Assembly (NCBI GenBank): GCA_963281255.1
Contig: OY725491.1
Coordinates: forward strand, 372,001-436,000
Origin: Aphrocallistes beatrix
Taxonomy: Eukaryota; Porifera; Hexactinellida; Sceptrulophora; Aphrocallistidae
Length of the DNA: 64,000 nucleotides
Direction of reading: 5' to 3'
Part shown: positions 1 to 58,848 of the stretch, in pieces
How positions within the stretch are numbered: position 1 is the stretch's first letter
How the letters are laid out: the number at the start of each line of letters is the position of its first letter
The notes under the pieces: model-generated
What the model was told of the DNA's origin: nothing
Databases searched by the model: none
The model's input: only the letters and a program-made list of their open reading frames with translations
Program-made: the position numbers and the translations under genes

Positions 1-548
1 ATGAATCCAGTGAGAAGAAAGAAAAGTCTAAATCTTATGGTTTTGCTCTCGGTGGTATTTGTGTGGATAATATTCATATTTATGTCGGTCATTGGTTTGG
101 AATGAATCTAATAGTGTTAACTCTAGATTTGATTGAAGAAAGCAGAATATCTCTCAAGACTGAATTCTGTAAACAAAATACCGAAATCAGAGATATATCT
201 CTATCTCAAGAATTGTTTTACATTTTGCTATCTGGAACAGAATTTCCAATTCAAGTATTTTCAAGAGAAGGCATTCTGACGAGATGTGTTGTTAAGAAAG
301 ATAGCATTGACTGTGCTTATTGTTTCTGTCTAGACCAGCAACACAACATCTTAGTAGCAGACTTTGGAGACTCTAAAGTGAAGATATTTTCCAATGAAGG
401 GAAGCTACTCACCCAATTCGGTGAGAAAGGATCTAAGAAAGGACAGTTCAGTTATATTCGTGGGATATCCGTTAACGAGTTTGGTTCTATTGTCACTGTT
501 GATCGGAAAAGCACTGACTGTCTTCAGTCTTTTACCGTTACCAGCTAA
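1..548 (+). CDS. N1: coiled-coil/NHL propeller family protein, C-terminal part (5' end outside window)
   Basis: The reading frame is open from base 3 to a TAA at 546-548. It corresponds to about residues 245-424 of the 424-aa family template, so the start codon, coiled coil and first propeller blades lie upstream of the window. What is visible is the end of blade 2 and blades 3-6, with the family signatures GICVDNIHIYVG, SQELFYILLSG and VADFGDSKVKIFSNEGK. An internal GTG or ATG is not a credible start because homology continues upstream to base 1. Variable-site residues are HWF in blade 3, DCAY and F in blade 5, and SK and SYIR in blade 6. It has the standard C-terminal cassette and the standard 3' flank. 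No molecular activity is visible beyond a propeller-type binding domain. Confidence 0.8.
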   Translation, partial: ESSEKKEKSKSYGFALGGICVDNIHIYVGHWFGMNLIVLTLDLIEESRISLKTEFCKQNTEIRDISLSQELFYILLSGTEFPIQVFSREGILTRCVVKKDSIDCAYCFCLDQQHNILVADFGDSKVKIFSNEGKLLTQFGEKGSKKGQFSYIRGISVNEFGSIVTVDRKSTDCLQSFTVTS

Positions 549-1426
549 TTTAATTTTGCTTTATGCTTAATTAAAATTGTTTCTCTTAACTAAAGTCCGT
601 TAATCGTTGATATTTTTTGACATTATTTTCTTTATTTTTATTTTGTATTCAACGTGTTAGCATCTTGTACTTATTGAGTAATAAGTATATTGTTGTAATT
701 GTAAAAAGCTTATATTAGAACGCATAAACAATTTTGTTTACTGCTACCATGTTGTCTTGATGATTCGAACTTCTGTTAACTCTTCTATTCTAGATGTTTA
801 TTATACTATACTTTTAACTTTTATTGATAATATTTCAAATCATATTCACTATCGTCACTTCTTCCATCTTATTGTACAGTATATATAATCCTACCTACCC
901 ACATGGACATTCCTTTCTGATAAATCCCTCCTAGGACACTCACTGCTCATGAAACTTGTCCAATTTCCTCTTGGTATAATCAATATTAAACTTGAGCAAT
1001 GAGGCATTCCATCTCATTTACATACTTACACACAAGAATTTGGTCTAATAAATACCATTTACTTTTGTTATCTGAAACGGAATAAATATAAACCATACAC
1101 GTACACTATGATGAAATGCTGTTTAATACGTCAATAGGACGATTGCTTGTCATAGAAACATCTGATAAGAAATGTCATTCAAAGAGCTAGCGACTATCTA
1201 CCATTGTATTGCTCACAATATTAAGTAAATCCACTACGCTATTAATAGCTAACTAACTCTAAATATAGATATATAGCAGAGTTCTAGTATACTACATGTG
1301 TGATAAAACCGTTGCCGAGATAAGTGAAAGACTAAGTTCGATAGAATTCTAATTCAAGAAATGACAATTCTAATAATGTTCGTAGTCAAAATAAACTAGA
1401 ACATAAACGAGCCCACAGGGTTACTA
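549..1426. other. Intergenic: conserved 3' flank of the family, then dispersed repeat R1
   Basis: About 549-860 is the roughly 300-nt AT-rich 3' flank found behind most array genes; it includes a shared ACTCTT(C/G)TATTCTAGATGTTTATT-like stretch. About 890-1190 is a copy of repeat R1, recognisable by GACATTCCTTTCTGA, AGGACACTCACTGC and GAGGCATTCCATCTCAT; related copies lie near 16700, 18900, 29250, 56750 and 59700. I see no coding capacity. Confidence 0.55.
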
Positions 1427-1990
1427 CGAGGGTCACTCAATAAGCTTTGAGCCTGGAGTAGTTGCTTCCATTTGATTGTGTTGAAAATTCCTAGGATTAT
1501 TCATCTACCTATTATTACTTGTATCTTTGGCTTTGAGTTTGATTAGACAAGTTTCTAAAATATTATGCCACATATAATGGAGTGTCCTTGTGGACTCCGA
1601 CACATTTGCAAGCCATTTCCTATGGAAATTTATTTATTCTCTTTATGAGAAATGATAACTGAGAACAAACTTTTGATAATTCAATATTATCAATGATGCG
1701 ATATATTCACAATCCGGGGGGATTCTATGATTATCATATTTAAATTTCGTTTGCAAAACATAAATAAATGTTCAAATATATCTCAATTCAACACTTGTGG
1801 TTTTGTTTTCATATATGCTAATACAAAATATCTTAGACAATTTCTTCATCACAATATTTTAGAAACTTGTCCGATTGAAATCAAACTCAAATTCAAAGAT
1901 AATAATAGGTAGGTGAATAATCCTAGAAACTTTCAACAAAATCAAACGGAAGCAACTACTCCAGGCTCAAAACATATTGAGTGACCCTCG
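1427..1990. mobile_element. Long-TIR MITE, Tc1/mariner-like, TA-flanked
   Basis: The two ends are inverted repeats of roughly 95 nt, beginning CGAGGGTCACTCAATAAG and ending in the near-perfect reverse complement (GAGTGACCCTCG). TA dinucleotides flank both sides (1425-1426 and 1991-1992). The 564-nt element has no transposase; the 61-codon ORF inside it is not convincing. TA duplication and long terminal inverted repeats are typical of non-autonomous Tc1/mariner elements. Confidence 0.7.
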
Positions 1991-2057
1991 TAGAACATAA
2001 TCCTACTGAAGTGAATATGACGTGTTGATACCCTCTAAGTACCCTGATCATATAAGA

Positions 2058-2237: not shown

Positions 2238-3512
2238 ATGGCAACAGCAGATCCAGGATCTGGTCCTGCTAGTTTATTCGGAGTGAGTAACAAACTCCAG
2301 AATAAAGTGAACTCGTTTAGAGAAATGATTGAACGGAAGAAGTTGGAAGTAAGAAGAGTCAGCAAAGAAATGAGAAGTCTTATCGAAACGAAAGAAGAAG
2401 AAATTATCCGAGAATTGAATGATATTTTGGAAGAAGTGAATACTAAAATGGAAAGAAAGAAAATTGGAGTTCAGAAAGAGATACGAGAGTTAGAGATTAA
2501 GAAAAGTGAAATCAACAAAATTCTTCAAAACCTCAATCAAAATATAACTGAATTTCCACAATTGTCTGAAGCAATCGAGAAGGCGAAAAGAGAAATGGAC
2601 ATTGATATTCCAAATGTGAAGTTAACGTGGAGAGTAGATGAATTGAAAGATTATATAAATAGAATGTGTCGTTGTGATCAACATATTCTAGTTTATAATG
2701 AAGATACTCGGTATCAACTGGAATGGAGTAAGTGCGAGTATGGAAGTGGAGACAATCAACTCTGTCATCCATGGGGTATAGCAACTAATCCTATGAATGA
2801 AAATATTTATGTAGCTGACAAATCGAATCACAGAGTTCAGATTTTCTCTAGAGAAGGTGAATGGATCAGATCTGTGAAAGATGAAGAAATGAAATATCCA
2901 GAGAATATTCTATTCCACAACCAATCAATTTACGTACAATGTAGTGAAGCAATTTTGAAATTGAATGAATTCCCTGAGAAGAAAGAAAAGTCTAAATCTT
3001 ATGGTTTTGCTCTCGGAGGTATCTGCACAGATAATATTCATATTTATGTTGGTCAATGGAAGGGAATGAATCTAATAGTGTTAACTCTAGCTTTGATTAA
3101 AGAAAACAGAATATTTCTCAAGACAGAATTCTGTAAACAAAATACTGAAATCAGAGATATATCTCTATCTCAAGAATTGTTTTACATTTTGCTATCTGAA
3201 AAAGAATTTCCAATTCAAGCATTTTCTAGAGAAGGCATTCTGACAAGATGTGTTGTTAAGAAAGGTAGCATTCACTCTGCTTTTTGTTTCTGTCTAGATC
3301 AGCAACAGAACATCTTAGTAGCAGACTGTGGAGACTCTAAAGTGAAGATATTTTCCAAAGAAGGGAAGCTACTCACTCAGTTCGGTAAGAAAGGATCTAT
3401 GAAAGGTCAGTTCAGTGGTCTTCTTGGGATTTCAATTAATGAGTTTGGTTCTATTGTCACTGTTGATCGGAAGAACACTTCCTGTCTCCAGTTCTTCACC
3501 ATTATTAGCTAA
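2238..3512 (+). CDS. N2: coiled-coil/NHL propeller protein, 424 aa
   Basis: This is a single-exon gene starting at the ATG of the invariant MATADPGSGPASLFG N-terminus. Residues about 17-120 are charged heptad-like coiled coil, followed by a linker with MCRCDQH and six NHL-like blades (about 164-424; for example PWGIATNPMNENIYVAD and NILVADCGDSKVKIFS). Its coil cassette (KEIRELEIKKSEINKILQNL) is unique in the window and more diverged than the others; the C-terminal cassette is standard. Variable-site residues include EYGSG, CH, KS in place of QW, QWK, HSAF, C and SGLL. There is no RING, B-box, signal peptide or membrane segment, so it is probably cytosolic. NHL propellers in TRIM/Brat proteins bind RNA or protein; which applies here is unknown. 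Confidence 0.87.
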   Translation: MATADPGSGPASLFGVSNKLQNKVNSFREMIERKKLEVRRVSKEMRSLIETKEEEIIRELNDILEEVNTKMERKKIGVQKEIRELEIKKSEINKILQNLNQNITEFPQLSEAIEKAKREMDIDIPNVKLTWRVDELKDYINRMCRCDQHILVYNEDTRYQLEWSKCEYGSGDNQLCHPWGIATNPMNENIYVADKSNHRVQIFSREGEWIRSVKDEEMKYPENILFHNQSIYVQCSEAILKLNEFPEKKEKSKSYGFALGGICTDNIHIYVGQWKGMNLIVLTLALIKENRIFLKTEFCKQNTEIRDISLSQELFYILLSEKEFPIQAFSREGILTRCVVKKGSIHSAFCFCLDQQQNILVADCGDSKVKIFSKEGKLLTQFGKKGSMKGQFSGLLGISINEFGSIVTVDRKNTSCLQFFTIIS

Positions 3513-6998: not shown

Positions 6999-8273
6999 AT
7001 GGCAACAGCAGATCCAGGATCTGGTCCTGCTAGTTTATTCGGAGTGAGTAACAAACTCCAGAGTAAAGTGAACTCGTTTAGAGAAATGATTGAACGGAAG
7101 AAGTTGGAAGTAAGAAGAGTCAGCAAAGAAATGAGAAGTCTTATCGAAACGAAAGAAGAAGAAATTATCCGAGAATTGAATGCTATTTGGGAAGAATTGA
7201 ACGCTAAAATGGAAAGAAAGAAGGTAGAAATACAGACGAAAATCGCAGCATTTGAAGAAAAAGCCAGAGAAATGGAGAAATTATACGAAGAATTGAGTGC
7301 AGAGAGTAGTCCACTCTTCAATGTCTCTGAAAAAGTCGATTCAGTGAAAAGAAAAATGGATATTGATATTCCTAATGTGAAGTTAACGTGGAGAGTAGAT
7401 AAATTGAAAGATTGTATAAATAGAATGTGTCGTTGTGATCAACAGATTCTAGTTTATAATGAAGATACTCAGTATCAACTGAAATGGAGTAAGTGCAAGT
7501 TTGGAAAAGGAGACAATCAACTCAATAGTTCATGGGGTATAGCGACTAATCCTATGAATGAGAATATTTATGTAGCTGACCAATGTAATCACAGAGTTCA
7601 GATTTTCTCTAGAGAAGGAGAATGGATCAGATCTGTGAAAGATGAAGAAATGAAATATCCACAAAATATTATATTTCACAACCAATCAATTTTCGTACAA
7701 TGTTTTAGAGCAATTCTGAAATTGAATGAATTTACTGAGAAGAAACAAAACTCTAAATCTTATGATTTTCTTCTCATAGGTATCTGTACAGATAATATTC
7801 ATATTTATGTCGGTCAACGGAATAGAATGAATCTAATAGTGTTAACTCTAGATTTGATTGAAGAAAACAGAATATCTCTCAAGACTGAATTCTGTAATCA
7901 AAATACTGAAATCAGAGATATATCTCTATCTCAAGAATTGTTTTACATTTTGCTATCTGGAACAGAATTTCCAATTCAAGTATTTTCTAGAGAAGGCATT
8001 CTGACAAGATGTGTTGTTAAGAAAGATAGCATTAACTCTGCTCATTGTTTCTGTCTAGATCAGCAACACAACATCTTCGTAGCAGACTTTGAAGACTCTA
8101 AAGTGAAGATATTTTCCAATGAAGGGAAGCTACTCACTCAGTTCGGTGAGAAAGGGTCTGAGAAAGGACAGTTCAGTTATATTCGTGGGATATCCGTCGA
8201 TGTGTTTGGTTCTATTGTCACTGTTGATTCTAAGAAATCTGACCCTCTTCAGTCTTTTGCGATTATCAGCTAA
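6999..8273 (+). CDS. N3: coiled-coil/NHL propeller protein, 424 aa
   Basis: Intact single-exon family member with the invariant start MATADPGSGPASLFG. Its coil cassette is the TKIAAFEEKAREMEKLYEEL type shared with N7, N11 and N12, ending SPLFNVSEKVDSVKRKMDI. Six NHL-like blades follow. Variable-site residues are KFGKG and NSS (blade 1 entry), C (VADQCNHR), FRA (blade 2), L and I around DFLLIG, QRNR (blade 3), SAH and F/E (VADFEDSK) in blade 5, and SYIR in blade 6. It is the only copy with E in place of G after VADF. The C-terminus is standard (LQSFAIIS). A MITE sits 195 nt past the stop. No RING, B-box or transmembrane segment is present. Confidence 0.87.
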   Translation: MATADPGSGPASLFGVSNKLQSKVNSFREMIERKKLEVRRVSKEMRSLIETKEEEIIRELNAIWEELNAKMERKKVEIQTKIAAFEEKAREMEKLYEELSAESSPLFNVSEKVDSVKRKMDIDIPNVKLTWRVDKLKDCINRMCRCDQQILVYNEDTQYQLKWSKCKFGKGDNQLNSSWGIATNPMNENIYVADQCNHRVQIFSREGEWIRSVKDEEMKYPQNIIFHNQSIFVQCFRAILKLNEFTEKKQNSKSYDFLLIGICTDNIHIYVGQRNRMNLIVLTLDLIEENRISLKTEFCNQNTEIRDISLSQELFYILLSGTEFPIQVFSREGILTRCVVKKDSINSAHCFCLDQQHNIFVADFEDSKVKIFSNEGKLLTQFGEKGSEKGQFSYIRGISVDVFGSIVTVDSKKSDPLQSFAIIS

Positions 8274-11441: not shown

Positions 11442-12716
11442 ATGGCAACAGCAGATCCAGGATCTGGTCCTGCTAGTTTATTCGGAGTGAGTAACAAACT
11501 CCAGAGTAAAGTGAACTCGTTTAGAGAAATGATTGAACGGAAGAAGTTGGAAGTAAGAAGAGTCAGCAAAGAAATGAGAAATCTCATCGAAAAGAAAGAA
11601 GAAGCAATTATCCGTGAATTGAATGATATTTTAAAAGAAGTGAATACTAAATTGGAAAGAAAGAAGGCAGAAACTCAAAAAGAAATTGAAGGAATTGAGA
11701 CTCTTAGAAAGGAGATGGAGATAAAAATCCGTAAACTTAAGCCTACTTCAATTCATTTGACTCAAATATCCGAAGAAATCGATTCAATAAAAAGTGAAAT
11801 GGATATTGATATTCCTAATGTGAAGTTAACGTGGAGATTAGATAAATTGAAAGATTGTATAAATAGAATGTGTCGTTGTGATCAACAGATTCTAGTTTAT
11901 AATGAAGATACTCAGTATCAACTGAAATGGAGTAATTGCGAGAGAGGAATAGGAGACAATCAACTCAATAGTCCATGGGGTATAACGATAAATCCGATGA
12001 ATGAGAATATTTATGTAGCTGACCAATGGAATCACAGAGTTCAGATTTTCTCTAGAGAAGGAGAATGGATCAGATTTGTGAAAGATGAAGAAATGAAATA
12101 TCCACGAAATATTATATTCCACAACCAATCAATTTACGTTCAATGTAGTGAAGCAATTCTGAAATTGAATGAATTCACTGGAAAGAAAGAAAAGTCTAAA
12201 TCTTATGGTTTTGTTCTCGGAGGTATCTGTACAGATAATATTCATATTTATGTCGGTCAATGGAAGAGAATGAATCTAATAGTGTTAACTCTAGATTTGA
12301 TTGAAGAAAACAGAATATCTCTCAAGACTGAATTCTGCAAACAAAATACTGAAATCAGAGATATATCTCTATCTCAAGAATTGTTTTACATTTTGCTATC
12401 TGAAACAGAATTTCCAATTCAAGTATTTTCTAGAGAAGGCATTCTGACAAGATGTGTTGTTAAGAAAGATAGTATTAACTCTGCTGATTGTTTCTGTCTA
12501 GATCAGCAATACAACATCTTAGTAGCAGACTATGGAGACTCTAAAGTGAAGATATTTTCCAATGAAGGGAAGCTACTCACTCAGTTCGGTGAGAAAGGAT
12601 CTATGAAGGGACAGTTCAGTGATCTTACTGGGATTTCAATTGATGAGTTTGGTTCTATTGTTGCTGTTGATCAAAAGAATTCTGACCGTCTTCAGTCTTT
12701 TACCGTTTTCAGCTAA
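11442..12716 (+). CDS. N4: coiled-coil/NHL propeller protein, 424 aa (numbering template)
   Basis: Intact copy used here for numbering. Conserved N-terminus 1-45; coiled coil about 17-120 with the common KEIEGIETLRKEMEIKIRKL cassette; linker 121-163 with NRMCRCDQQILVYNEDT; blades about 171-216, 217-256, 257-300, 301-342, 343-386 and 387-424. Variable sites: 165-170 (CERGIG), 176-177 (NS), 196 (W), 222 (R), 236-238 (SEA), 256/258/260 (G, V, G), 273-276 (QWKR), 321 (E), 346-349 (NSAD), 357 (Y), 364 (Y), 387-388 (SM), 393-396 (SDLT) and 411-416. The residues between them hardly change across the array. No catalytic motif is visible; a ligand-binding scaffold that oligomerises through its coil is the simplest reading. 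Confidence 0.88.
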   Translation: MATADPGSGPASLFGVSNKLQSKVNSFREMIERKKLEVRRVSKEMRNLIEKKEEAIIRELNDILKEVNTKLERKKAETQKEIEGIETLRKEMEIKIRKLKPTSIHLTQISEEIDSIKSEMDIDIPNVKLTWRLDKLKDCINRMCRCDQQILVYNEDTQYQLKWSNCERGIGDNQLNSPWGITINPMNENIYVADQWNHRVQIFSREGEWIRFVKDEEMKYPRNIIFHNQSIYVQCSEAILKLNEFTGKKEKSKSYGFVLGGICTDNIHIYVGQWKRMNLIVLTLDLIEENRISLKTEFCKQNTEIRDISLSQELFYILLSETEFPIQVFSREGILTRCVVKKDSINSADCFCLDQQYNILVADYGDSKVKIFSNEGKLLTQFGEKGSMKGQFSDLTGISIDEFGSIVAVDQKNSDRLQSFTVFS

Positions 12717-14573: not shown

Positions 14574-15842
14574 ATGGCAACAGCAGATCCAGGATCTGGT
14601 CCTGCTAGTTTATTCGGAGTGAGTAACAAACTCCAGAGTAAAGTGAACTCGTTTAGAGAAATGATTGAACGGAAGAAGTTGGAAGTGAGAAGAGTCAGCA
14701 AAGAAATGAGAAGTCTTATCGAAACGAAAGAAGGATCAATAATCCGAGAATTGAATGTTATTTGGGAAGAAGTGAATACTAAATTGGAAAGGAAGAAGAT
14801 TGATACTCAAAATGAAATTGAAGAAATAGAAACTCTTAGAAAGGAATTTTAGAAAAAATTCCGAAAACTTAAAACTACTTCAATTCAATTGAGTCAAATA
14901 TCTGAAGAAATCGATTTAGTGAAAAGCGAAATGGATATTGATGTTCCTAATGTGAAGTTAACGTGGAGAGTGGATGAATTGAAAGATTGTATAAATAAAA
15001 TGTGTCGTTGTGATCAACAGATTCTAGTTTATAATGAAGATACTCAGTATCAACTGAAATGGAGTAAGTGCGAGTATGGAGACAATCAACTCAACAGGCC
15101 ATGGGGTTTAGCGACTAATCCTATGAATGAGAATATTTATGTAGCTGACCAATTCAATCACAGAGTTCAGATTTTCTCTAGAGAAGGAGAAAGGATCAGA
15201 TCTGTGAAAGATGAAGAAATGAAAAATCCACTAAATATTCTAATTCACAACCAATCAATTTACGTTCAATGTCACAGAGTAATTCTGAAATTGAATGAAT
15301 TCACTGAGAAGAAAGAAAAGTCTAAATCTTATGATTTTCATCTCAGAGGTATCTGTACAGATAATATTCATATTTATGTCGGTCAATGGAAGGGAATGAA
15401 TCTAATAGTGTTAACTCTAGATTTAATTGAAGAAAACAGAATATCTCTCAAGACTGAATTCTGTAAACAAAATACTGAAATCAGAGATATATCTCTATCT
15501 CAAGAATTGTTTTATATTCTGCTATATGAAACAGAATTTCCAATTCAAGTATTTTCTAGAGAAGGCATTCTGACAAGATGTGTTGTTAAGAAAGATAGCA
15601 TTGACTCTGCTTATTGTTTCTGTCTAGACCAGCAACACAACATCTTAGTAGCAGATAATGAAAACACTAAGGTGAAGATATTTTCCAATGAAGGGAAGCT
15701 ACTCACTCAGTTCGGTGAGAAAGGTTTTAGGAAAGGACAGTTCAACAGTATTCGTGGGATATCCGTTGATGAGTTTGGTTCTATTGTCGCTGTTGATTGC
15801 AAGAACTCTGACTGTCTTCAGGTTTTGACCATTATCAGCTAG
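14574..15842 (+). pseudogene. N5: coiled-coil/NHL family member with premature stop
   Basis: Homology covers the whole family length in one frame, but codon 93 is TAG (14850-14852), in the coil after TLRKEF; relatives have a Glu codon there (N9 has KELEK). Otherwise the frame is open to 15840. It lacks two residues in blade 1 entry (CEYGDNQL where others have CEYGSGDNQL). Variable-site residues are NR, F, L, HRV, DFHLRG, QWKG, DSAY, N/E (VADNENTK), FR and NSIR. Either it is a young pseudogene, makes a 92-aa coil-only fragment, or restarts at ATG 14931, which would give an almost coil-less propeller. Pseudogene is the safest call. Confidence 0.75.
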
Positions 15843-17408: not shown

Positions 17409-18680
17409 ATGGCAACAGCAGATCCAGGATCTGGTCCTGCTAGTTTATTCGGAGTGAGTAACAAACTCCAGAGTAAAGTGAACTCGTTTAGAGAAATGAT
17501 TGAACGGAAGAAGTTGGAAGTAAGAAGAGTCAGCAAAGAAATGAGAAGTCTTATCGAAAAGAAAGAAGAATCAATTATCCGAGAATTGAATGCTATTTGG
17601 GAAGAATTGAATGCTAAAATAGAAAGAAAGAAATCCGAAACTCAAAAAGAAATTGAAGAAATTGAGACTCTTAGAAAGGAAATGGAGAGAAAAATTCGTA
17701 AACTTAAAACTACTTCAATTCAATTGACTCAAATATCCGAAGAAATCGATTCTATAAAAAGCGAAATGGATATTGATATTCCTGATGTGAAGTTAACGTG
17801 GAGAATAGGTGAATTGAAAGATTGTATAAATAGAATGTGTCGTTGTGATCAACAAAATCTAGTTTATAATAAAGATACTCGGTTTCAACTGAAATGGAGT
17901 AAATGCGAGAATGAAAGAGGAGACAATCAACTCTGTAATCCATGTGGTATAGCGACTAATCCTATGAATGAGAATATTTATGTAGCTGACCAATCGAATC
18001 ACAGAGTTCAGATTTTCTCTAGAGAAGGAGAATGGATCAGATCTGTGAAAGATGAAGAAATGAAATATCCACAAAATATTATATTTCACAACCAATCAAT
18101 TTACGTACAATGTAATACAGCTATTCTGAAATTGAATGAATTCACTGAGAAGATAGAAAAGTCTAAATCTTATGGTTTTAATCTCAGAGGTATCTGTACA
18201 GATAATATTCATATTTATGTCGGAATTCGCCATGGAATGAATCTAATAGTGTTAACTCTAGATTTGATTGAAGAAAACAGAATATCTCTCAAGACTGAAT
18301 TCTGTAAACAAAATCCTGAAATCAGAGATATATCTCTATCCCAAGGATTGTTTTACATTTTGCTGTCTGAAACAGAATTTCCAATTCAAGTATTTTCTAG
18401 AGAAGGCATTCTGACAAGATGTGTTGTTAAGAAGGATAGCATTAACTCTGCTTTTTGTTTCTGTCTAGATCAGCAACACAACATCTTCGTAGCAGACTGT
18501 GGAGACTCTAAAGTGAAGATATTTTCCAATGAAGGGAAGCTACTCACTCAGTTTGGTGAGGAAGGATCTGAGAAAGGACAGTTCACTGATCTTCTTGGAA
18601 TTTTCGGTGATTTTGGTTCAATTCTCACAGTTGATTGGAAGAAATCTGGCCTTCTTCAGTCTTTCACCATTGTCAACTAA
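17409..18680 (+). CDS. N6: coiled-coil/NHL propeller protein, 423 aa
   Basis: Intact single-exon copy with the common coil cassette (KEIEEIETLRKEMERKIRKL). Variable-site residues are ENERG and CN (blade 1 entry, followed by PCGI where nearly all others have PWGI), S (VADQSNHR), Q, NTA, N and R around GFNLRG, IRH (blade 3, where most have QWK), SAF and C in blade 5, SE and TDLL in blade 6. Blade 6 is atypical: GIFGDFGSILTVD, one residue shorter than GISVDEFGSIVTVD, which accounts for 423 aa. The end is standard (LQSFTIVN). The Trp-to-Cys change at the blade 1 entry and the short blade 6 could alter propeller closure. Confidence 0.86.
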   Translation: MATADPGSGPASLFGVSNKLQSKVNSFREMIERKKLEVRRVSKEMRSLIEKKEESIIRELNAIWEELNAKIERKKSETQKEIEEIETLRKEMERKIRKLKTTSIQLTQISEEIDSIKSEMDIDIPDVKLTWRIGELKDCINRMCRCDQQNLVYNKDTRFQLKWSKCENERGDNQLCNPCGIATNPMNENIYVADQSNHRVQIFSREGEWIRSVKDEEMKYPQNIIFHNQSIYVQCNTAILKLNEFTEKIEKSKSYGFNLRGICTDNIHIYVGIRHGMNLIVLTLDLIEENRISLKTEFCKQNPEIRDISLSQGLFYILLSETEFPIQVFSREGILTRCVVKKDSINSAFCFCLDQQHNIFVADCGDSKVKIFSNEGKLLTQFGEEGSEKGQFTDLLGIFGDFGSILTVDWKKSGLLQSFTIVN

Positions 18681-24340: not shown

Positions 24341-24377
24341 TAAATACAGAAAATATCAACCGATTAGCTAATTGTGA

Positions 24378-28668: not shown

Positions 28669-28670
28669 TT

Positions 28671-28683
28671 AGGGAGGGGGTGA
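28671..28683 (+). other. Polypurine tract before the 3' LTR
   Basis: AGGGAGGGGG followed by TGA directly abuts the 3' LTR start TGTTG at 28684, the expected place for plus-strand priming. Confidence 0.75.
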
Positions 28684-36771: not shown

Positions 36772-38046
36772 ATGGCAACAGCAGATCCAGGATCTGGTCC
36801 TGCTAGTTTATTCGGAGTGAGTAACAAACTCCAGAGTAAAGTGAACTCGTTTAGAGAAATGATTGAACGGAAGAAGTTGGAAGTAAGAAGAGTCAGCAAA
36901 GAAATGAGAATTCTTATCGAAACGAAAGAAGAAGCAGTTATCCAAGAATTAGATGCTATTTGGGAAGAAGTGAATATTAAAATGGAAAAAAAGAAGATTG
37001 AAACGCAAAAAGAGATTGAAGAAATTGAGACTCTTAGAAAGGAGTTGGAGAGAAAAATTCATAAACTTATGCCTACTTCAATTCAATTGACTCAAATATC
37101 AGAAGTAATCGATTCTCTAAAAAGCGAAATGGATATTGATATTCCTAATGTGAAGTTAACGTGGAGAGTAGATGAATTGAAGGATTGTATAAATAGAATG
37201 TGTCGTTGTGATCAACAGATTCTAATTTATAATGAAGATACTCGGTTTCAACTGAAATGGAGTAAGTGCGAGAATGGAAGTGGAGACAATCAACTCAATA
37301 GTCCATGGGGTATAGCGACTAATCCTATGAATGAGAATATTTATGTAGCTGACCAATGGAATCACAGAGTTCAGATTTTCTCTAGAGAAGGAGAATGGAT
37401 CAGATCTGTGAAAGATGAAGAACTCAAAGATCCAGAAAATATTCTGATTCACAACCAATCAATTTACGTTCAATGTCACAGATTAATTCTGAAATTGAAT
37501 GAATTCACTGAGAAGAAAGAAAAGTCTAAATCTTATGGTTTTGCTCTCGGAGGTATCTGTACAGATAATATTCATATTTATGTCGGTCAATGGAAGGGAA
37601 TGAATCTAATAGTGTTAACTCTAGATTTGATTGAAGAAAACAGAATATCTCTCAAGACTGAATTCTGTAATCAAAATACTGAAATCAGAGATATATCTCT
37701 ATCTCAAGAATTGTTTTACATTTTGCTATATGAAACAGAATTTCCAATTCAAGTATTTTCTAGAGAAGGCATTCTGACAAGATGTATTGTTAAGAAAGAT
37801 AGCATTAACTCTGCTTTTTGTTTCCGTCTAGATCAGCAACGCAACATCTTTATAGCAGACTTTGGAGACTCTAAAGTGAAGATATTCTCCAATGAAGCGA
37901 AACTACCCACTCAGTTCGGTGAGAAAGGATCTGAGAAAGGACAGTTCAAGGGTATTCGTGGGATTTCCGTTGATCAGGTTTGTTCTATTATCACTGTTGA
38001 TTGGAAGAATTCTGACTGTCTTCAGTCTTTTGCCGTTTTCAGCTAA
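36772..38046 (+). CDS. N10: coiled-coil/NHL propeller protein, 424 aa
   Basis: Intact copy: type B upstream block, common coil cassette (KEIEEIETLRKELERKIHKL) with MPTSIQLTQISEVIDS as in N14 and N15, and standard C-terminus (LQSFAVFS). Variable-site residues are ENGSG and NS, W, DPE, HRL, A and G (GFALGG as in N1 and N2), QWKG, LYETEF, SAF with R (FRLDQQRN) and F in blade 5, SE and KGIR in blade 6. It has NEAKLPTQF where others have NEGKLLTQF, and QVCSIITVD. It shares short residue sets with N2, N4 and N5 at separate sites, as expected from patchwork exchange. Confidence 0.87.
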   Translation: MATADPGSGPASLFGVSNKLQSKVNSFREMIERKKLEVRRVSKEMRILIETKEEAVIQELDAIWEEVNIKMEKKKIETQKEIEEIETLRKELERKIHKLMPTSIQLTQISEVIDSLKSEMDIDIPNVKLTWRVDELKDCINRMCRCDQQILIYNEDTRFQLKWSKCENGSGDNQLNSPWGIATNPMNENIYVADQWNHRVQIFSREGEWIRSVKDEELKDPENILIHNQSIYVQCHRLILKLNEFTEKKEKSKSYGFALGGICTDNIHIYVGQWKGMNLIVLTLDLIEENRISLKTEFCNQNTEIRDISLSQELFYILLYETEFPIQVFSREGILTRCIVKKDSINSAFCFRLDQQRNIFIADFGDSKVKIFSNEAKLPTQFGEKGSEKGQFKGIRGISVDQVCSIITVDWKNSDCLQSFAVFS

Positions 38047-39731: not shown

Positions 39732-41006
39732 ATGGCAACAGCAGATCCAGGATCTGGTCCTGCTAGTTTATTCGGAGTGAGTAACAAACTCCAGAGTAAA
39801 GTGAACTCGTTTAGAGAAATAATTGAACGGAAAAAGTTGGAAGTGAGAAGAGTCAGCAAAGAAATGAGAAGTCTTATCGAAACGAAAGAAGAAGCAATTA
39901 TCCGAGAATTGAATGCTATTTTAGAAGAAGTGAATACTAAATTGGTAAGTAAGAAGGCAGAAACTCAGACGAAAATCGCAGCATTTGAAGAAAAAGTAAG
40001 AGAAATGGAAAAATTATACAAAGAATTAAGTACAGAAAGTGGTCCACTCTTCAATGTCTCTGAAAAACTCGTATCAGTGAAAAGAGAAATGGATATTGAT
40101 ATTCCTAATGTGAAGCTAACGTGGAGAGTGGATGAATTGAAAGATTGTATAAATAGAATGTGTCGTTGTGATCAACAGATTCTAGTTTATAATGAAGACA
40201 CTCAGTATCAACTGAAATGGAGTAAGTGCGAGTATGGAAGTGGAGACAATCAACTCAATAGTTCATGGGGTATAGCAACTAATCCTATGAATGAGAATAT
40301 TTATGTAGCTGACCAATTGAATCACAGAGTTCAGATTTTCTCTAGAGAAGGAGAATGGATCAAATCTGTGAAAGACGAAGAAATGAAAAATCCACAAAAT
40401 ATTCTATTTCACAACCAATCAATTTACGTACAATGTAATGGAGCCATTCTGAAATTGAATGAATTCACTGAGAAGAAAGAAAAGTCTAAATCTTATGATT
40501 TTTATCTCAGAGGTATCTGTACAGATAATATTCATATTTATGTCGGTCAATGGAATGGAATGAATCTAATAGTGTTAACTCTAGACTTGATTGAAGAAAA
40601 CAGAATATCTCTCAAGACTGAATTCTGTAAACAAAATACTGAAATCAGAGATGTATCTCTATCTCAAGAATTGTTTTATATTTTGATATTAAATTCAGAA
40701 TTTCCAATTCAAGTATTTTCCAGAGAAGGCATTCTGACAAGATGTGTTGTTAAGAAAGATAGCATTAAGTCTGCTCATTGTTTCTGTCTAGATCAGCAAC
40801 ACAACATCTTAGTTTCAGACCGTGGAGACTCTAAAGTGAAAATATTCTCCAATGAAGGGAAGCTGCTGACTCAATTCGGTGAGAAAGGATATGAGAAAGG
40901 ACTTTTTGGACAGGTAAATGGAATTTCTCTCTTGATACACGAATTTATCATTACCACTGATAGTGCAAAAAATGAAAACAAATTGCAATTGTTCAAACGA
41001 ATGTAG
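39732..41006 (+). CDS. N11: coiled-coil/NHL propeller protein, 424 aa, third type of C-terminus
   Basis: Intact copy: type B upstream block and TKIAAFEEKVREMEKLYKEL coil. Its last about 40 residues differ from all others: YEKGLFGQVNGISLLIHEFI, then ITTDSAKNENKLQLFKRM. The blade 6 frame of the fold is kept (NGIS, ITTD, LQLF), so this looks like a replaced closing blade, not a mutation. Variable-site residues are EYGSG and NSS, L, NPQ, NGA, Y and R (DFYLRG), QWN, ILNS in place of LSET in blade 4, KSAH and R (VSDRGDSK). It has LVSKK where others have LERKK in the coil. Its 3' flank also differs from the standard one. Confidence 0.87.
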   Translation: MATADPGSGPASLFGVSNKLQSKVNSFREIIERKKLEVRRVSKEMRSLIETKEEAIIRELNAILEEVNTKLVSKKAETQTKIAAFEEKVREMEKLYKELSTESGPLFNVSEKLVSVKREMDIDIPNVKLTWRVDELKDCINRMCRCDQQILVYNEDTQYQLKWSKCEYGSGDNQLNSSWGIATNPMNENIYVADQLNHRVQIFSREGEWIKSVKDEEMKNPQNILFHNQSIYVQCNGAILKLNEFTEKKEKSKSYDFYLRGICTDNIHIYVGQWNGMNLIVLTLDLIEENRISLKTEFCKQNTEIRDVSLSQELFYILILNSEFPIQVFSREGILTRCVVKKDSIKSAHCFCLDQQHNILVSDRGDSKVKIFSNEGKLLTQFGEKGYEKGLFGQVNGISLLIHEFIITTDSAKNENKLQLFKRM

Positions 41007-44546: not shown

Positions 44547-45821
44547 ATGGCAACAGCAGATCCAGGATCTGGTCCTGCTATTTTATTCGAAGTGAGTAAC
44601 AAACTCCAGAGTAAAGTGAACTCGTTTAGAGAAATGATTGAACGGAAGAAGTTAGAAGTAAGAAGAGTCAGCAAAGAAATGAGAATTCTCATCGAAACGA
44701 AAGAAGCAACAATTATCCGAGAATTGAATGCTATTTGGGAAGAAGTGAATACTAAATTGGAAAGAAAGAAAGTAGAAACTCAGACGAAAATCGCAGCATT
44801 TGAAGAAAAATTGAGAGAAATGGAGAAATTATACGAAGAATTGAGTACAGAGAGTAGTCCTCTCTTCAATTTCTCTGAAAAACTCGATTCAGTTAAAAGC
44901 AAAATGGATATTGATATTCCTAGTGTGAAGTTAACGTGGAGAGTAGATGAATTAAAAGATTGTATAAATCGAATGTGTCGTTGTGATCAACAGATTCTAG
45001 TTTATAATGAAGATACTCAGTATCAACTGAAATGGAGTAAATGCGAGAAAGGAAGAGGAGACAATCAACTCTATAATCCATGGGGTATAGCGACTAATTC
45101 TATGGATGAGAATATTTATGTAGCTGACCAATGCAATCACAGAGTTCAGATTTTCTCTAGAGAAGGAGAATGGATCAGATCTGTGAAAGATGAAGAAATG
45201 AAATATCCGCAAAATATTCTATTTCACAACCAATCAATTTATATAGAGTGTTACAAAACAATATTGAGAATGAATAGGTTCACTGAAAATAAGGGAAAGT
45301 CCAAATCTTATGACTTTGTTCTCAGAGGTATCTCTAATAGTGATAGCCATATTTATGTCGGAAATCGCGACGGAATGAATCTAATAGTGTTAACTCTAGA
45401 TTTGATTGAAGAAAACAGAATATCTCTCAAGACTGAATTCTGTAATCAAAATACTGAAATTAGAGATATATCTCTATCCCAAGGATTGTTTTACATTTTG
45501 CTGTCTGAAACAGAATTTCCAATTCAAGTATTTTCTAGAGAAGGCATTCTGACAAGATGTGTTGTTAAGAAAGATAGCATTAACTATGCTCATTGTTTCT
45601 GTCTAGATCAGCAACACAACATCTTCGTAGCAGACTATGGAGACTCTAAAGTGAAGATATTTTCCAATGAAGGGAAGCTACTCACTCAGTTCGGTGAGAA
45701 AGGACTTGAGAAGGAACAGTTCAATGGACTCTATGGAATATCAGTGAATGAGTTTTGTTCTATTGTCACTGTTGATTGCAAACAATCCAACCTACTCCAG
45801 TATTTTAGAGTTGTTAACTAA
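44547..45821 (+). CDS. N12: coiled-coil/NHL propeller protein, 424 aa, with a diverged block
   Basis: Intact copy: type A upstream block, TKIAAFEEKLREMEKLYEEL coil, standard C-terminus (LQYFRVVN). Substitutions cluster between about 45237 and 45360: YIECYKTILRMNRFTENKGK, then RGISNSDSHIYVGNRDG, where others have YVQC..AILKLNEFTEKKEK and RGICTDNIHIYVGQWKG. This about 120-nt block looks imported from a more distant family member. It also starts MATADPGSGPAILFEV, the only copy deviating in SLFG. Variable-site residues are EKGRG and YN, C, Q, YKT, NRD, YAH, Y, LE and NGLY. The 3' flank after the stop is not the standard family flank. Confidence 0.86.
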   Translation: MATADPGSGPAILFEVSNKLQSKVNSFREMIERKKLEVRRVSKEMRILIETKEATIIRELNAIWEEVNTKLERKKVETQTKIAAFEEKLREMEKLYEELSTESSPLFNFSEKLDSVKSKMDIDIPSVKLTWRVDELKDCINRMCRCDQQILVYNEDTQYQLKWSKCEKGRGDNQLYNPWGIATNSMDENIYVADQCNHRVQIFSREGEWIRSVKDEEMKYPQNILFHNQSIYIECYKTILRMNRFTENKGKSKSYDFVLRGISNSDSHIYVGNRDGMNLIVLTLDLIEENRISLKTEFCNQNTEIRDISLSQGLFYILLSETEFPIQVFSREGILTRCVVKKDSINYAHCFCLDQQHNIFVADYGDSKVKIFSNEGKLLTQFGEKGLEKEQFNGLYGISVNEFCSIVTVDCKQSNLLQYFRVVN

Positions 45822-49697: not shown

Positions 49698-50972
49698 ATG
49701 GCAACAGCAGATCCAGGATCTGGTCCTGCTAGTTTATTCGGAGTGAGCAACAAACTCCAGAGTAAAGTGAACTCGTTTAGAGAAATGATTGAACGGAAGA
49801 AGTTGGAAGTAAGAAGAGTCAGTAAAGAAATGAGAAGTCTTATCGAAACGAAAGAAGAAGCAATTATCCGAGAATTGAATGCTATTTGGGAAGAATTGAA
49901 CGCTAAAATGGAAAGAAAGAAAATTGAAACTCAAAAAGAAATTGAAGAAATTGAAACTCTTAGAAAGGAAATGGAGAGAAAAATTCATAAACTTAGGCCT
50001 AATTCAATTCAATTCACTCAAATATCCCAAGAAATCGATTCTATAAAAAGCGAAATAGATATTGATATTCCTAATGTGAAGTTAACGTGGAGAATAGATG
50101 AATTGAAAGATTGTATAAATAGAATGTGTCGTTGTGATCAACAGATTCTAGTTTATAATGAAGATACTCGGTTTCAACTGAAATGGAGTAAGTGCGAGAA
50201 AGGAAGTGGAGACAATCAACTCAATATTCCATATGGTATAGCGACTAATCCTATGAATGAGAATATTTATGTAGCTGACCAATTGAATCACAGAGTTCAG
50301 ATTTTCTCTAGAGAAGGAGAATGGATCAGATCTGTGAAAGATGAAGAAATGAAATTTCCACTAAATATTCTATTTCACAACCAATCAATTTACGTGCAAT
50401 GTAGTGAAGCAGTTCTGAAATTGAATGAATTCACTGAGAAGAAAGAAAAGTCTAAATCTTATAGTTTTAGTCTCAGAGGTATCTGTACAGATAATATTCA
50501 TATTTATGTCGGTCAAAGGAAGGGAATGAATCTAATAGTGTTAACTCTAGATTTGATTGAAGAAAACAAAATATCTCTCAAGACTGAATTCTGTCAACAA
50601 AATACTCAAATCAGAGATATATCTCTATCTCAAGAATTGTTTTACATTTTGCTATCTGAAACAGAATTTCCAATTCAAGTATTTTCTAGAGAAGGCATTC
50701 TGACAAGATGTGTTGTTAAGAAAGATAGCATTAACTCTGCTTTTTGTTTCTGTCTAGATCAGCAACACAACATCTTAGTAACAGACAATGGAAATTCTAA
50801 AGTGAAGATATTTTCCAAAGACGGGAATCTACTCACTCAGTTCGGTGAGAAAGGATTTAGGAAAGGACAGTTCACTGATATTCATGGGATATACGTTGAT
50901 GAGTTTGGTTCTATTGTCACTGTTGATCGAAAAGACACTAACCGACTTCAGTCTTTCACCATCAGTAGCTAA
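49698..50972 (+). CDS. N13: coiled-coil/NHL propeller protein, 424 aa
   Basis: Intact copy: type A upstream block, common coil cassette (KEIEEIETLRKEMERKIHKL), standard C-terminus (LQSFTISS). Variable-site residues are EKGSG and NI (blade 1 entry, then PYGI with Tyr for Trp), L, FPL, SEA with V (AVLK), S, S and R (SFSLRG), QRK (blade 3), SAF and N with N (VTDNGNSK), FR and TDIH. It has SKDGNLLTQF where others have SNEGKLLTQF, and GIYVDEFGSIVTVDRKDTNR. Like N6 it replaces the otherwise fixed Trp at the blade 1 entry. Confidence 0.87.
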   Translation: MATADPGSGPASLFGVSNKLQSKVNSFREMIERKKLEVRRVSKEMRSLIETKEEAIIRELNAIWEELNAKMERKKIETQKEIEEIETLRKEMERKIHKLRPNSIQFTQISQEIDSIKSEIDIDIPNVKLTWRIDELKDCINRMCRCDQQILVYNEDTRFQLKWSKCEKGSGDNQLNIPYGIATNPMNENIYVADQLNHRVQIFSREGEWIRSVKDEEMKFPLNILFHNQSIYVQCSEAVLKLNEFTEKKEKSKSYSFSLRGICTDNIHIYVGQRKGMNLIVLTLDLIEENKISLKTEFCQQNTQIRDISLSQELFYILLSETEFPIQVFSREGILTRCVVKKDSINSAFCFCLDQQHNILVTDNGNSKVKIFSKDGNLLTQFGEKGFRKGQFTDIHGIYVDEFGSIVTVDRKDTNRLQSFTISS

Positions 50973-53804: not shown

Positions 53805-55078
53805 ATGGCAACAGCAGATCCAGGATCTGGTCCTGCAAGTTTTTTCGGAGTGAGTAACAAACTCCAGAGTAAAGTGAGCTCGTTTAGAGAAATGATTGAA
53901 CGGAAGAAGTTGGAAGTGAGAAGAGTCAGCAAAGAAATGAGAAGTCTTATCGAAAAGAAAGAAGAAGCAATTATCCGAGAACTAAATGCCATTTGGGAAG
54001 AATTGAATACTAAATTGGAAAGAAAAAAGATTGAAACGCAAAATGAAATTGAAGAATTGAGACTCTTAGAAAGGAGATGGAGAGAAAAATTCATAAACTT
54101 ATGCCTACTTCAATTCAATTGACTCAAATATCAGAAGTAATCGATTCTGTAAAAAGAGAAATGGATATTGATATTCCTAATGTGAAGTTAACGTGGAGAG
54201 TAGATGAATTGAAAGATTGTATAAATAGAATGTGTCGTTGTGATCAACAGATTCTAGTTTATAATGAAGATACTCAGTATCAACTGGAATGGAGTAAATG
54301 TGAGTATGGAAGAGGAGGAAATCAACTCTGTAGTCCAAGGGGTATAGCGACTAATCCTATGAATGAAAATATTTATGTAGCTGACCAATTGAATCACAGA
54401 GTTCAGATTTTCTCTAGAGAAGGAGAATGGATCAGATCTGTGAAAGATGAAGAAATGAAATATCCACAAAATATTCTATTTCACAACCATTCAATTTACG
54501 TACAATGTAATACAGCTATTCTGAAATTAAATGAATCCACTGAGAAGAAAGAGAAGTCTAAATCTCATGATTTTGATCTCAGAGGTATCTGTACAGATAA
54601 TATTCATATTTATGTCGGTCAACGATATGGAATGAATCTAATAGTGTTGACTCTAGATTTGATTGAAGAAAACAGAATATCTCTCAAGACTGAATTCTGT
54701 AAACAAAATACTGAAATCAGAGATATATCTCTATCTCAAGAACTGTTTTACGTTTTGCTGTCTGAAACAAAATTTCCAATTCAAGTATTTTCTAGAGAAG
54801 GCATTCTGACAAGATGTGTTGTTAAGAAAGATAGCATTAACTGTGCTTATTGTTTCTGTCTAGATCAGCAACAAAACATCTTAGTAGCAGACTTTGGAGA
54901 ATCTAAAGTGAAGATATTTTCTAATGAAGGGAAGCTACTCACTCATTTCGGTGAAGAAGGATTTTGTCCAGGACAGTTGATAAACGTCCATGGAATCTCA
55001 TTAGATGATTTAGGAACTATACTTACTATAGATTGGAAATTCTCATCTCACATTCTTCAAGCTTTTTCACGTATTTAG
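53805..55078 (+). pseudogene. N14: coiled-coil/NHL family member with a one-base frameshift
   Basis: Homology covers the full family, but the total is 1274 nt, one short of 1275. One A is missing at about 54055-54058 (GAAGAATTGAGACTC where others read GAAGAAATTGAGACTC). The first frame ends at 54120-54122 after 105 codons; the rest, from the coil to the stop at 55076-55078, is open in the next frame. It has a type B upstream block, the common coil and the alternative C-terminus with N7 and N15 (GQLINVHGISLDDLGTILTI, LQAFSRI). Variable-site residues are EYGRG and CS (then PRGI), L, NTA, DFDLRG, QRY, NCAY, F and FC. It may be a young pseudogene or a sequencing error. Confidence 0.75.
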
Positions 55079-56391: not shown

Positions 56392-56430
56392 GTACTGCTG
56401 ACTCATTTCTTTACGGCCTAGAATTATATT

Positions 56431-57396
56431 CAAATCGTTTATATTGAATCAAGCTATTATCTATTATTTAACTCATCCTAATAAATCTCAAATGGTTAGA
56501 ACGGGCCTTTCTCAAAGCTCCTCGCCCAGGTTTTATCCATTTATTTCCGGTTTGAACGAGGTTGTGTTCACTCATGTCTTAAAACAGATAAATCCAACTC
56601 TGTTACTGTATAACTGGTTGAGCATTAATTAAGCTTGATTGCTATCAAATAGAACGAAACAATCTCATTTAGCTAATTATACAGGATATATCTCTATCGA
56701 ACATGGATATTCCTTTCTAACAAATCCCTCTTAGGACAACATGGCGCTGTCATGAGTCTCCAATTTATCTTGGTGTAATCAATATTAAACTTGATCAATG
56801 AGGCATTCCATTTCATTCACATACTTAGTGTTTTGGCGCCTTTCTAGGTGTCTGGACAGTGGACACTCATTCCCTTTCATTTATCTAATTGTACAATTTA
56901 TAACCTTACCGATATAGACATTACTTTCTGACTAATTCCTCCTAGGACTCACTGCCCATAAAGTTGGCCATTAAACTTGCGCCCAATTTCCTCTTGATCT
57001 AATTAATATTAAATTTGAACAATGAGGCATTCCACCTCATCTACATACAGTGTTGAATCTTCCTCAGTAGATACCACACACGCACACCATGATGAAATGC
57101 TGCGTAAGGTGTCAACAGGATTATTGGTTGTCATAGAAACATATGGATAGCACCACCGGTACGGGTGGTGCTTTTTAATCTGAATCACTTTTCAAATGTG
57201 GCCCCGAATGATTCAGTTAAACCTGACCACTTTTCAAACCATAGCGCTGGTGGTGAATATCAAATAATAAGTGTAATATTCAAAAAGCTAGCGACTATCT
57301 ATCACTGTCTTACTGACAATCTTAAGTTAATCCACTGAGCTATTAATAGCTAATCAGCTAATTCTAAATATAGATCTATAGCAGAGTTCTAGCATA
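56431..57396. other. Intergenic: R1 twice, R3, then distal type A region
   Basis: R1 landmarks appear at about 56700-56830 and again at about 56880-57120 (GAGGCATTCCA(T/C)(C/T)TCAT), R3 at about 57150-57255 (AACCTGACCACTTTTCAAAC), then GAGCTATTAATAGCTAATC. Paralogous to 29080-29690. No gene. Confidence 0.5.
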
Positions 57397-57576
57397 CATC
57401 CACTGTAGTATCAATGTGAAACTAAGAATGAGGTTGAAGTGTAGTCACTAGGATATAGAATTTCTTTGTGGTGTATTACGATGAAATATAAATGTGAGTA
57501 AACTGTATTCTTTTCTTATTGAATAAATTGTAATTGTTTGTACTCTGTTCTTAATTGAAATAATAGCGAATCTATA
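57397..57576 (+). promoter_or_regulatory. Type A upstream block of N15
   Basis: Conserved 180-nt block, TATAAA at 57487-57492. Confidence 0.6.
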
Positions 57577-58848
57577 ATGGCAACAGCAGATCCAGGATCT
57601 GGTCCTGCTAGTTTATTCGGAGTGAGTAACAAACTCCAGAGTAAAGTGAACTCGTTTAGAGAAATGATTGAACGGAAGAAGTTGGAAGTAAGAAGAGTCA
57701 GCAAAGAAATGAGAAGTCTTATCGAAACGAAAGAAGAAGAAATTATCCGAGAATTGAATGCTATTTGGGAAGAAGTGAATGCTAAAATGAAAAAAAAGAA
57801 GATTGAAACGCAAAAGGAAATTGAAGAAATTGAGACCCTTAGAAAGGAGATGGAGAGAAAAATTCATAAACTTATGCCTACTTCAATTCAATTGACTCAA
57901 ATATCAGAAGTAATCGATTCAGTGAAAAGCGAAATGGATATTGATATTCCTAATGTGAAGTTAACGTGGAGAGTGGATGAATTGAAAGATTGTATAGATA
58001 GAATGTGTCGTTGTGATCAACAGATTCTAGTTTATAATGAAGATACTCAGTATCAACTGAAATGGAGTAAGTGCGAGTGGGGAACGGGAGACAATCAACT
58101 CTATAGTCCATGGGGTATTGCGACTAATCCTATGAATGAGAATATTTATGTAGCTGACCAAGGGAATCACAGAGTTCAGATTTTCTCTAGAGAAGGAGAA
58201 TGGATCAGATCTGTGAAAGATGAAGAAATGAAATATCCACTAAATATTCTATTTCACAACCAATCAATTTACGTACAATGTAGAACAGCAATTCTGAAAT
58301 TGAATGAATTCACTGCAAAGAAAGAGAAGTCTAAATCTTATGGTTTTGATCTCAGAGGTATCTGTACAGATAATATTCATATTTATGTCGGTCAATGGAA
58401 GGGAATGAATCTAATAGTGTTAACTCTAGATTTGATTGAAGAAAACAGAATATCTCTCAAGACTGAATTCTGCAATCAAAATACTGAAATCAGAGATATA
58501 TCTCTATCTCAAGAATTGTTTTACATTTTGCTATCTGGAACAGAATTTCCAATTCAAGTATTTTCTAGAGAAGGCATTCTGACAAGATGTGTTGTTAAGA
58601 AAGATAGCATTAACTATGCTCTTTGTTTCTGTCTAGATCAGCAACACAACATCTTAATAGCAGACAATGGAGACTCTAAAGTGAAGATATTTTCCAATGA
58701 AGGGAAGCTACTCACTCAGTTCGGTGAGAAAGGAATTAAGGCAGGACAATTTATGAAAGTCAATGGAATCTCATTGGATGATTTAGGAACTATTTTTATT
58801 GTAGATTGGAAGATGTCTCCCGTCCTTCAAGCATTTTCACGTATCTAG
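57577..58848 (+). CDS. N15: coiled-coil/NHL propeller protein, 423 aa, alternative C-terminus
   Basis: Intact last copy of the array, next to UBE2N. Type A upstream block, common coil cassette (KEIEEIETLRKEMERKIHKL, with MKKKK before it), and the alternative C-terminus of N7 and N14 (AGQFMKVNGISLDDLGTIFI, LQAFSRI). Variable-site residues are EWGTG and YS, G (VADQGNHR), L, RTA, D and R (GFDLRG), QWKG, NYAL and N in blade 5, IK and MKVN. Since its 3' flank runs uninterrupted into the functional UBE2N gene, its arrangement is probably the source of the duplications behind N7 and N14. No RING or B-box is present. Confidence 0.88.
   Translation: MATADPGSGPASLFGVSNKLQSKVNSFREMIERKKLEVRRVSKEMRSLIETKEEEIIRELNAIWEEVNAKMKKKKIETQKEIEEIETLRKEMERKIHKLMPTSIQLTQISEVIDSVKSEMDIDIPNVKLTWRVDELKDCIDRMCRCDQQILVYNEDTQYQLKWSKCEWGTGDNQLYSPWGIATNPMNENIYVADQGNHRVQIFSREGEWIRSVKDEEMKYPLNILFHNQSIYVQCRTAILKLNEFTAKKEKSKSYGFDLRGICTDNIHIYVGQWKGMNLIVLTLDLIEENRISLKTEFCNQNTEIRDISLSQELFYILLSGTEFPIQVFSREGILTRCVVKKDSINYALCFCLDQQHNILIADNGDSKVKIFSNEGKLLTQFGEKGIKAGQFMKVNGISLDDLGTIFIVDWKMSPVLQAFSRI

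Follow-up and report, generated by a model that had tools for sequence, protein, structure and literature searches.

A tandem family of coiled-coil NHL propeller genes in a glass sponge, diversified at a ring of sites on one predicted face: a candidate inherited recognition repertoire

Why does a glass sponge carry, within a few tens of kilobases, a row of genes whose products differ mostly around one rim of the protein? The question is raised by a stretch of 64,000 nucleotides from Aphrocallistes beatrix (assembly GCA_963281255.1, contig OY725491.1; G000:C4:372001-436000 in a genome of 100.5 Mb and 28 contigs), the whole of which is referred to here as the window. By tblastn, 15 copies of one gene, encoding a coiled coil and a propeller of NHL repeats, were found on its + strand, 12 of them intact, two broken and one truncated at the left edge. 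The initial annotation had counted the same 15 copies in one orientation; its description of them as nearly identical was overstated, the other full-length copies being 74–81% identical to the first. The intact open reading frames (ORFs) span 423–424 amino acids. Natural selection was found to change a ring of 24 propeller positions while the rest of the propeller is conserved, and the family is probably a germline-encoded, diversified recognition repertoire.

The numbering used here is that of the intact copy at 11442..12716 (+ strand, 424 amino acids), for which the AlphaFold model confidently gave a long helix (residues 11–99) followed by a six-bladed NHL propeller (codons 158–424, 11913..12713). 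A coiled coil ahead of a C-terminal six-bladed propeller is also the arrangement of the TRIM-NHL proteins, or TRIM class VII (TRIM2, TRIM3, TRIM71/LIN41, Brat, Thin and Mei-P26), and the best sequence and fold matches were TRIM-NHL proteins. The TRIM coil family PF25600 was detected below cut-off in four of the six proteins scanned against Pfam (three window copies, P0166, P0237 and P0103) and is precomputed for several public members. In agreement with the initial annotation, no RING finger family and no B-box (PF00643) was found in these six proteins, and the 24 B-box matches listed for the genome all lie outside the window. The same scans returned no effector, NACHT or HET domain; leucine-rich repeats were absent from the scans and from the model, and no hydrophobic N-terminal leader was present as judged from sequence. 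The proteins are probably intracellular, and the family would most simply descend from TRIM-NHL proteins that lost the RING and the B-box. Besides this loss, the sponge genes differ from TRIM-NHL in forming large tandem arrays of single ORFs and in having a rim that is diversified, not conserved; in LIN41 of different species, the majority of the RNA-binding residues are identical (PMC5908797). Within a copy, the blades are unlike one another by inspection of the translations.

The family extends far beyond the window. At least 100 matches were obtained in the same genome, mainly on C1 (9.49–10.48 Mb), C4 and C16 and some of them fragments, a lower bound that reflects the scoring of 99 of 1,977 first-look candidates. 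The back-translated motif N-x-R-V-Q-[VIM]-F occurred 485 times in the genome, compared with four times for a reversed control; with some genes carrying the motif twice, the count points to NHL genes and remnants in the hundreds. Arrays on C12 and C3 hold a second subfamily, 22–25% identical to the reference window copy and of the same plan, and a query from this subfamily gave 2,224 public protein matches. The closest named public relatives were from another glass sponge, Oopsacas minuta.

Where does the variation fall? Among 13 C4 copies (the 12 intact window copies and L001, the whole form of the edge-cut copy), 19 propeller sites reached an entropy of at least 2 bits; 15 of these lie in the D-A or B-C loops and none in the bottom loops, the remaining four being A+1 residues (two) and residues of the last strand (two) (P = 5e-6). 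At a threshold of 1.5 bits, 32 sites were obtained, 18 in top loops, 12 in strands and two in bottom loops (P = 6e-4). The variable sites named in the initial annotation were right and non-random; missing from that list were sites 179, 195, 220, 300–306, 320 and 411–416, which vary here or in other arrays, the coil at 61–118 and the variation of blade 6, which extends to synonymous sites. In the AlphaFold model, most of the strongly variable propeller residues occupy the top rim, and a single rule per blade (the positions A-1 and A+1, on either side of the residue that opens strand A, and the first two residues following strand B) defines a ring of 24 sites: 177, 179, 195, 196, 220, 222, 236, 237, 258, 260, 274, 275, 304, 306, 320, 321, 347, 349, 364, 365, 394, 396, 411 and 412.

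In the C4, C1, second-assembly and second-subfamily sets, the mean entropy of the ring was 1.62–1.84 bits; a set of O. minuta and other public proteins gave 2.57 bits. Sliding the ring by one residue lowered these values to 0.63–0.88 and 1.55 bits, respectively, and none of 20,000 random 24-site sets matched the observed entropy in any of the five sets. The residue between A-1 and A+1 is conserved (0.18–0.36 bits in three same-species sets and 0.73 in the other). The entropy profile also recurred in 25 second-assembly proteins outside the fetched genome copies (Spearman 0.54). Entropies from three sets (13 C4 copies, 59 copies and 25 second-assembly proteins) were known when the rule was fixed, so these sets are not independent of it; the O. 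minuta and other public set and the second-subfamily proteins were examined afterwards. For C12 and C3, motifs were used to place the ring under the same rule, once the entropies of these arrays had been seen. The 59-copy set was obtained from 72 genome and window copies by excluding 13 (L048–L060) as distant, short or broken; upstream extra starts were trimmed in L038 and L041, and L061–L082 were cut back to an MAT start if one was present close to the N terminus.

Is this selection? The ratio of nonsynonymous to synonymous change (dN/dS) was estimated by the pairwise Nei-Gojobori method, with bootstrap over codons. The ring presented values of 2.18 [1.14–4.96] in the 13 C4 copies, 2.36 [1.18–5.82] in 19 C1 copies and 1.76 [1.19–2.64] in the 59 copies; a ratio at or below 1 at the variable sites, which the initial annotation named as refuting its reading, was thus not observed. 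Elsewhere, the values were 0.38–0.44 for the propeller outside the variable set, 0.35–0.51 for the bottom loops, 0.51–0.79 for other top-loop sites and 0.43–0.51 for the coil. When the variable sites were defined solely from second-assembly entropies, ratios of 2.12 [1.23–3.76], 2.31 [1.22–5.13] and 1.40 [1.02–2.08] were found for the C4, C1 and 59-copy sets, respectively. In a site-wise analysis (in-house and FUBAR-like, with fixed kappa, one tree, a coarse grid and the best global value at the grid edge), 13 sites in C4 and 16 in C1 reached a posterior of at least 0.95 for dN > dS; eight and 14 of them belong to the ring, and 12 and all 16, respectively, to the top loops or the ring, the lone C4 exception being site 402 in a bottom loop. 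The diversity is therefore directed to one face and not to both, as had been proposed from the first reading of the window.

The same pattern was found in distant members of the family. In the C12 array (12 copies sampled), the ring dN/dS was 1.56 [1.01–2.51], compared with 0.42 in the rest of the propeller, and of the 24 propeller sites with the most nonsynonymous variation, 15 belong to the ring; the corresponding number for C3 is 16 (nine copies used of ten sampled, L078 having been dropped for a disrupted C terminus). A second AlphaFold model, of the second subfamily (45 sequences), placed the starts of strand A at 170, 217, 263, 306, 351 and 392, and the motif-defined ring agreed with this model at 23 of 24 sites. 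In six groups comprising 35 public sequences without a close match in the fetched copies, the fraction of ring differences was 0.58–0.86, compared with 0.13–0.24 elsewhere; for a group of six proteins all from O. minuta, the values were 0.58 and 0.15. From this public set, P0089, P0098 and P0113 were removed as near-identical to genome copies, P0091–P0093 and P0119 were not included, and some further ENA proteins in it may belong to the present species. Similarly, six groups of second-subfamily proteins (longer than 395 amino acids, n = 101), at least one of them from this species and one holding four named O. minuta proteins, displayed ring differences of 0.39–0.70 against 0.08–0.15 elsewhere, and in one O. 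minuta pair of that subfamily 18 of 23 ring sites differed, compared with 15 of 237 others. As a separate observation, four NHL matches of equal score lie at an exact spacing of 3,380 bp at about G000:C12:4254386-4264612, which suggests a very recent tandem duplication.

A second, older layer of diversity, missed in the initial annotation, is provided by shuffled coil cassettes. Along the gene, the proportion of synonymous differences (pS) is 0.04–0.05 in codons 1–54, 0.32–0.62 in codons 61–120, mostly below 0.16 in codons 121–380 (with exceptions of 0.25 and 0.22) and 0.20–0.44 in codons 381–420. The cassette itself (codons 55–118, 11604..11795 in the reference copy) combines high synonymous with high nonsynonymous difference and falls into 25 classes among 52 copies at 15% nucleotide distance. 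Its distances hardly follow those of the other segments (rho 0.06–0.22), while the three middle segments (119–380) are mutually correlated at 0.41–0.56. With P = 0.002 in each case, recombination was detected in the full-length gene of both arrays and in the C1 propeller taken alone; the C4 propeller gave no such signal (P = 0.51). The pS profile, the segment distances and the recombination tests together indicate coil cassettes that are old and shuffled and ring sites that are changing in a young background.

Gene content appears to differ between the two assemblies compared. On an ENA contig of 376,751 bases, 100% matches were obtained for seven intact copies of the window and for three others nearby on C4 (one a truncated ORF), and two window copies were matched with one residue difference, while five full-length proteins were at most 86% identical to any copy compared (by a genome-wide search for P0003, and by comparison with the fetched copies for the other four). 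The intact window copies at 44547..45821 and 49698..50972 (424 amino acids each) and 57577..58848 (423 amino acids), all on the + strand, had no exact or near-exact counterpart among 120 listed of 186 public proteins. A second ENA contig (418,513 bases) carried 20 further full-length proteins, of which one reached 96% identity to a compared copy and the other 19 stayed below 89%; the best genome-wide match of P0011, from this contig, was 88%. Among near-identical inter-assembly pairs (at least 99.5%), ring sites made up two of five differences (four of five pairs compared, P0091 being left out). These results suggest that gene content varies strongly between haplotypes or individuals, assembly error being also possible. 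They bear in part on the variation between individuals, the absence of which would, by the initial annotation, have refuted its reading: some second-assembly proteins lack a close counterpart among the copies compared, and many match exactly. The likely counterpart of the 418,513-base contig, G000:C1:9.49-9.60 Mb, is rich in fragments and stops, in contrast to the approximately 20 intact proteins found there.

How might such proteins act? The long helix would dimerise the protein, and the rigid six-bladed propeller that follows it would contact a ligand through its top rim, with four positions per blade. Selection would keep altering these positions with the scaffold held, copies would arise by tandem duplication, and recombination between them would reshuffle coil cassettes against propellers. 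The ring would bind a changing nonself or conflict ligand, possibly a pathogen protein or RNA or the product of another individual, and the coil may decide the choice of partner. Binding would trigger a response through a separate effector, which is proposed because the six Pfam scans gave no effector domain. The family may serve as a sensor or in allorecognition, as initially suggested.

Nevertheless, several points weigh against a recognition repertoire. In C3, the ring dN/dS was 1.21 [0.67–2.60], an interval that includes 1, compared with 0.53 in the rest of the propeller. By the counting method, ring pS was above that elsewhere in both C12 (0.25 and 0.13) and C3 (0.32 and 0.12), so a locally raised mutation rate is still possible in these two arrays. 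The site-wise analysis assumes one tree, although recombination is detectable in the C1 propeller, and in the coil it gave no positively selected site, none reaching 0.9. In two inter-assembly pairs of 95–97% identity, ring sites accounted for just one of 18 and one of 15 differences, and the second assembly could represent the same animal, its other haplotype or another animal.

What could the ring contact? Ten residues of human TRIM71 have been tested as RNA contacts (PMC5908797), and all occupy ring registers: residues 608, 655, 702 and 796 (the last by counting) at A-1, 751 at A+1, 625 and 672 at the first position after strand B, and 673, 720 and 814 at the second. The residues were aligned through 7qrx, and the nine that are displayed match PMC5908797 in residue type. 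The ring therefore corresponds to the residues through which a known relative contacts its ligand. In the 59 copies, its net charge averaged +2.3 and ranged from -3 to +6, with many W, Y, F, C, N, S or E residues, and this span of charge does not imply a single kind of RNA ligand.

RNA-directed genome defence or regulation, which we consider unlikely yet the best of the rivals, would have the ring of each paralog read a different RNA motif, from transposons, viruses or the animal's own transcripts, in an arms race with transposable elements or RNA viruses, much as KRAB zinc fingers follow retroelements. The TRIM71 registers and the positive mean charge agree with it, as do an apparently young Ty3-like element inside the array and the binding of RNA through the same face by several of the nearest solved relatives (PMC9070667, PMC5908797). 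The wide charge range and the residue composition, however, are unlike the basic patch of Brat and LIN41. That each paralog serves a fixed endogenous protein partner, as in a subfunctionalised scaffold or ubiquitin-adaptor family, is improbable: specific complexes would fit the conserved scaffold and the diverse coils, but the registers with excess change are shared by each array, both subfamilies and O. minuta, which speaks for change that is still going on and not for a single episode, and the copy content appears to differ between the assemblies.

Far less credit still is given to mutation in place of selection, whether through a hot spot or through a targeted process such as the adenine-directed mutagenesis of diversity-generating retroelements. 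Codon positions 1 and 2 of the ring are strongly varied, with a constant T in the third position at six ring codons and nearly so at a seventh; mean third-base entropy was 0.59 bits in the ring, compared with 0.29 elsewhere (a figure that includes amino-acid-changing third bases), and ring pS is raised in C12 and C3. In blades 1–5, however, synonymous third-base difference was not raised at ring codons (0.037 compared with 0.052 elsewhere in C4, and 0.016 compared with 0.044 in C1), in a test that keeps pairs with equal first two bases and hence favours recent pairs. A hot spot was rejected on this ground, with the qualification, besides the C12 and C3 values, that inclusion of blade 6 brings the ring figure to 0.090 in C4 (0.033 in C1). 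Adenine-directed mutagenesis was rejected in turn, the third-base A at ring codons 195, 222, 237, 260 and 304 being kept in 28–31 of 32 copies. Relaxed constraint or decay of duplicates is equally implausible, for although two of the 15 window copies are broken, and more elsewhere, 12 are intact; the scaffold is constrained (dN/dS about 0.4), and it is on the 24 registers that the excess change, with a ratio above 1, is centred.

A recognition repertoire built in this manner has parallels. In lamprey VLRs and other leucine-rich repeat repertoires, variability also lies on one binding surface of a constant repeat scaffold; VLRs are made of leucine-rich repeats and assembled somatically, whereas the sponge family consists of germline genes with a propeller fold and no leucine-rich repeats. 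The HNWD proteins of Podospora anserina (HET-D, HET-E and HET-R), which function in heterokaryon incompatibility, share with the sponge family positive selection on the top face, in the d-a and b-c loops of each blade, and exchange between family members (PMC1805685, PMC2873952, PMC4986451). In the WD40 repeats of HET-D and HET-E, the positively selected codons on the top platform are 7 and 9 in the d-a loop, with codon 8 under purifying selection between them, and, in the b-c turn, 25 and 27 on either side of codon 26 (PMC1805685). The d-a pair flanks a conserved residue in both systems, while the b-c pair flanks a conserved codon in HNWD and consists of adjacent residues in the sponge ring. 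The fold is WD40 in HNWD and NHL in the sponge; near-identical repeats are shuffled within and between HNWD genes, whereas whole sponge genes are duplicated and their blades are dissimilar; and the HET and NACHT domains of HNWD are absent from the six scanned sponge members. By analogy, the sponge family works like HNWD in how specificity would be diversified, and it is not a member, because no WD40, NACHT or HET domain was found in the scans. The large tandem block of mostly single-exon AIG1 genes in the glass sponge Aphrocallistes vastus, whose authors discuss immunity (PMC10282587), is similar in arrangement and belongs to a different family: the domain is not the same, and no ring-like diversification appears in the available part of that paper.

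The remaining features of the window, with all gene copies on the + strand, are as follows. The C-terminal part of the edge-cut copy lies at 1..548, and the whole copy is intact at G000:C4:371274-372542. Further intact copies of 424 amino acids are found at 2238..3512, 6999..8273, 29872..31146, 33165..34439, 36772..38046 and 39732..41006, and of 423 amino acids at 17409..18680 and 21594..22865. The copy at 14574..15842 has one internal TAG stop, and that at 53805..55078 is split over two frames by a frameshift near 54060. Upstream of 13 copies, some 200–250 bp are conserved, with an almost invariant stretch at the ATG, which suggests a shared promoter. The Ty3-like retroelement occupies 24117–28907, with ORFs for a protease and a reverse transcriptase (RT)-RNase H-integrase; its 224-bp ends (24117–24340 and 28684–28907) are identical, hence its apparent youth. 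Remnants of a second retroelement family, about 88–90% identical, lie at 46904–48130 and 51481–52752, and its protease ORF has an internal tandem duplication. A ubiquitin-conjugating enzyme (PF00179) and a tRNA synthetase of class I (PF00133), represented by exons at 61021–61203 and 63126–63422, come after the array and suggest its right boundary. No non-coding RNA at Rfam gathering thresholds and no tRNA was found in the window.

The literature searched, in which subscription journals are poorly covered, yielded no account of a diversified family of NHL propellers in sponges; by word search, the O. minuta genome paper contains neither "NHL" nor "TRIM", and that of A. vastus no "NHL". NHL-repeat orthogroups are reported as expanded in merulinid corals. 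The family appears to be a recognition repertoire that is inherited and previously undescribed, in an early lineage of animals, and it offers a concrete candidate gene set for nonself recognition in glass sponges, no such genes having been found named in the literature searched. Glass sponges have syncytia (PMC5684314), so the cytoplasm of a fused neighbour would mix with their own, which makes intracellular allorecognition a testable possibility. It is conceivable, although doubtful, that the family is an animal counterpart of fungal heterokaryon incompatibility, in which cytosolic propellers would tell self from nonself, and shared viruses, in a common cytoplasm; if so, the rim loops diversified in hundreds of cytosolic propellers would be those that are diversified in HET-D and HET-E. 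If a recognition repertoire is the right reading, two unrelated propellers, the fungal WD40 and the sponge NHL, would have been diversified in the same two loops per blade, and a lineage that branched early among animals would use a propeller, rather than Ig, LRR or NLR proteins, as a large recognition scaffold.

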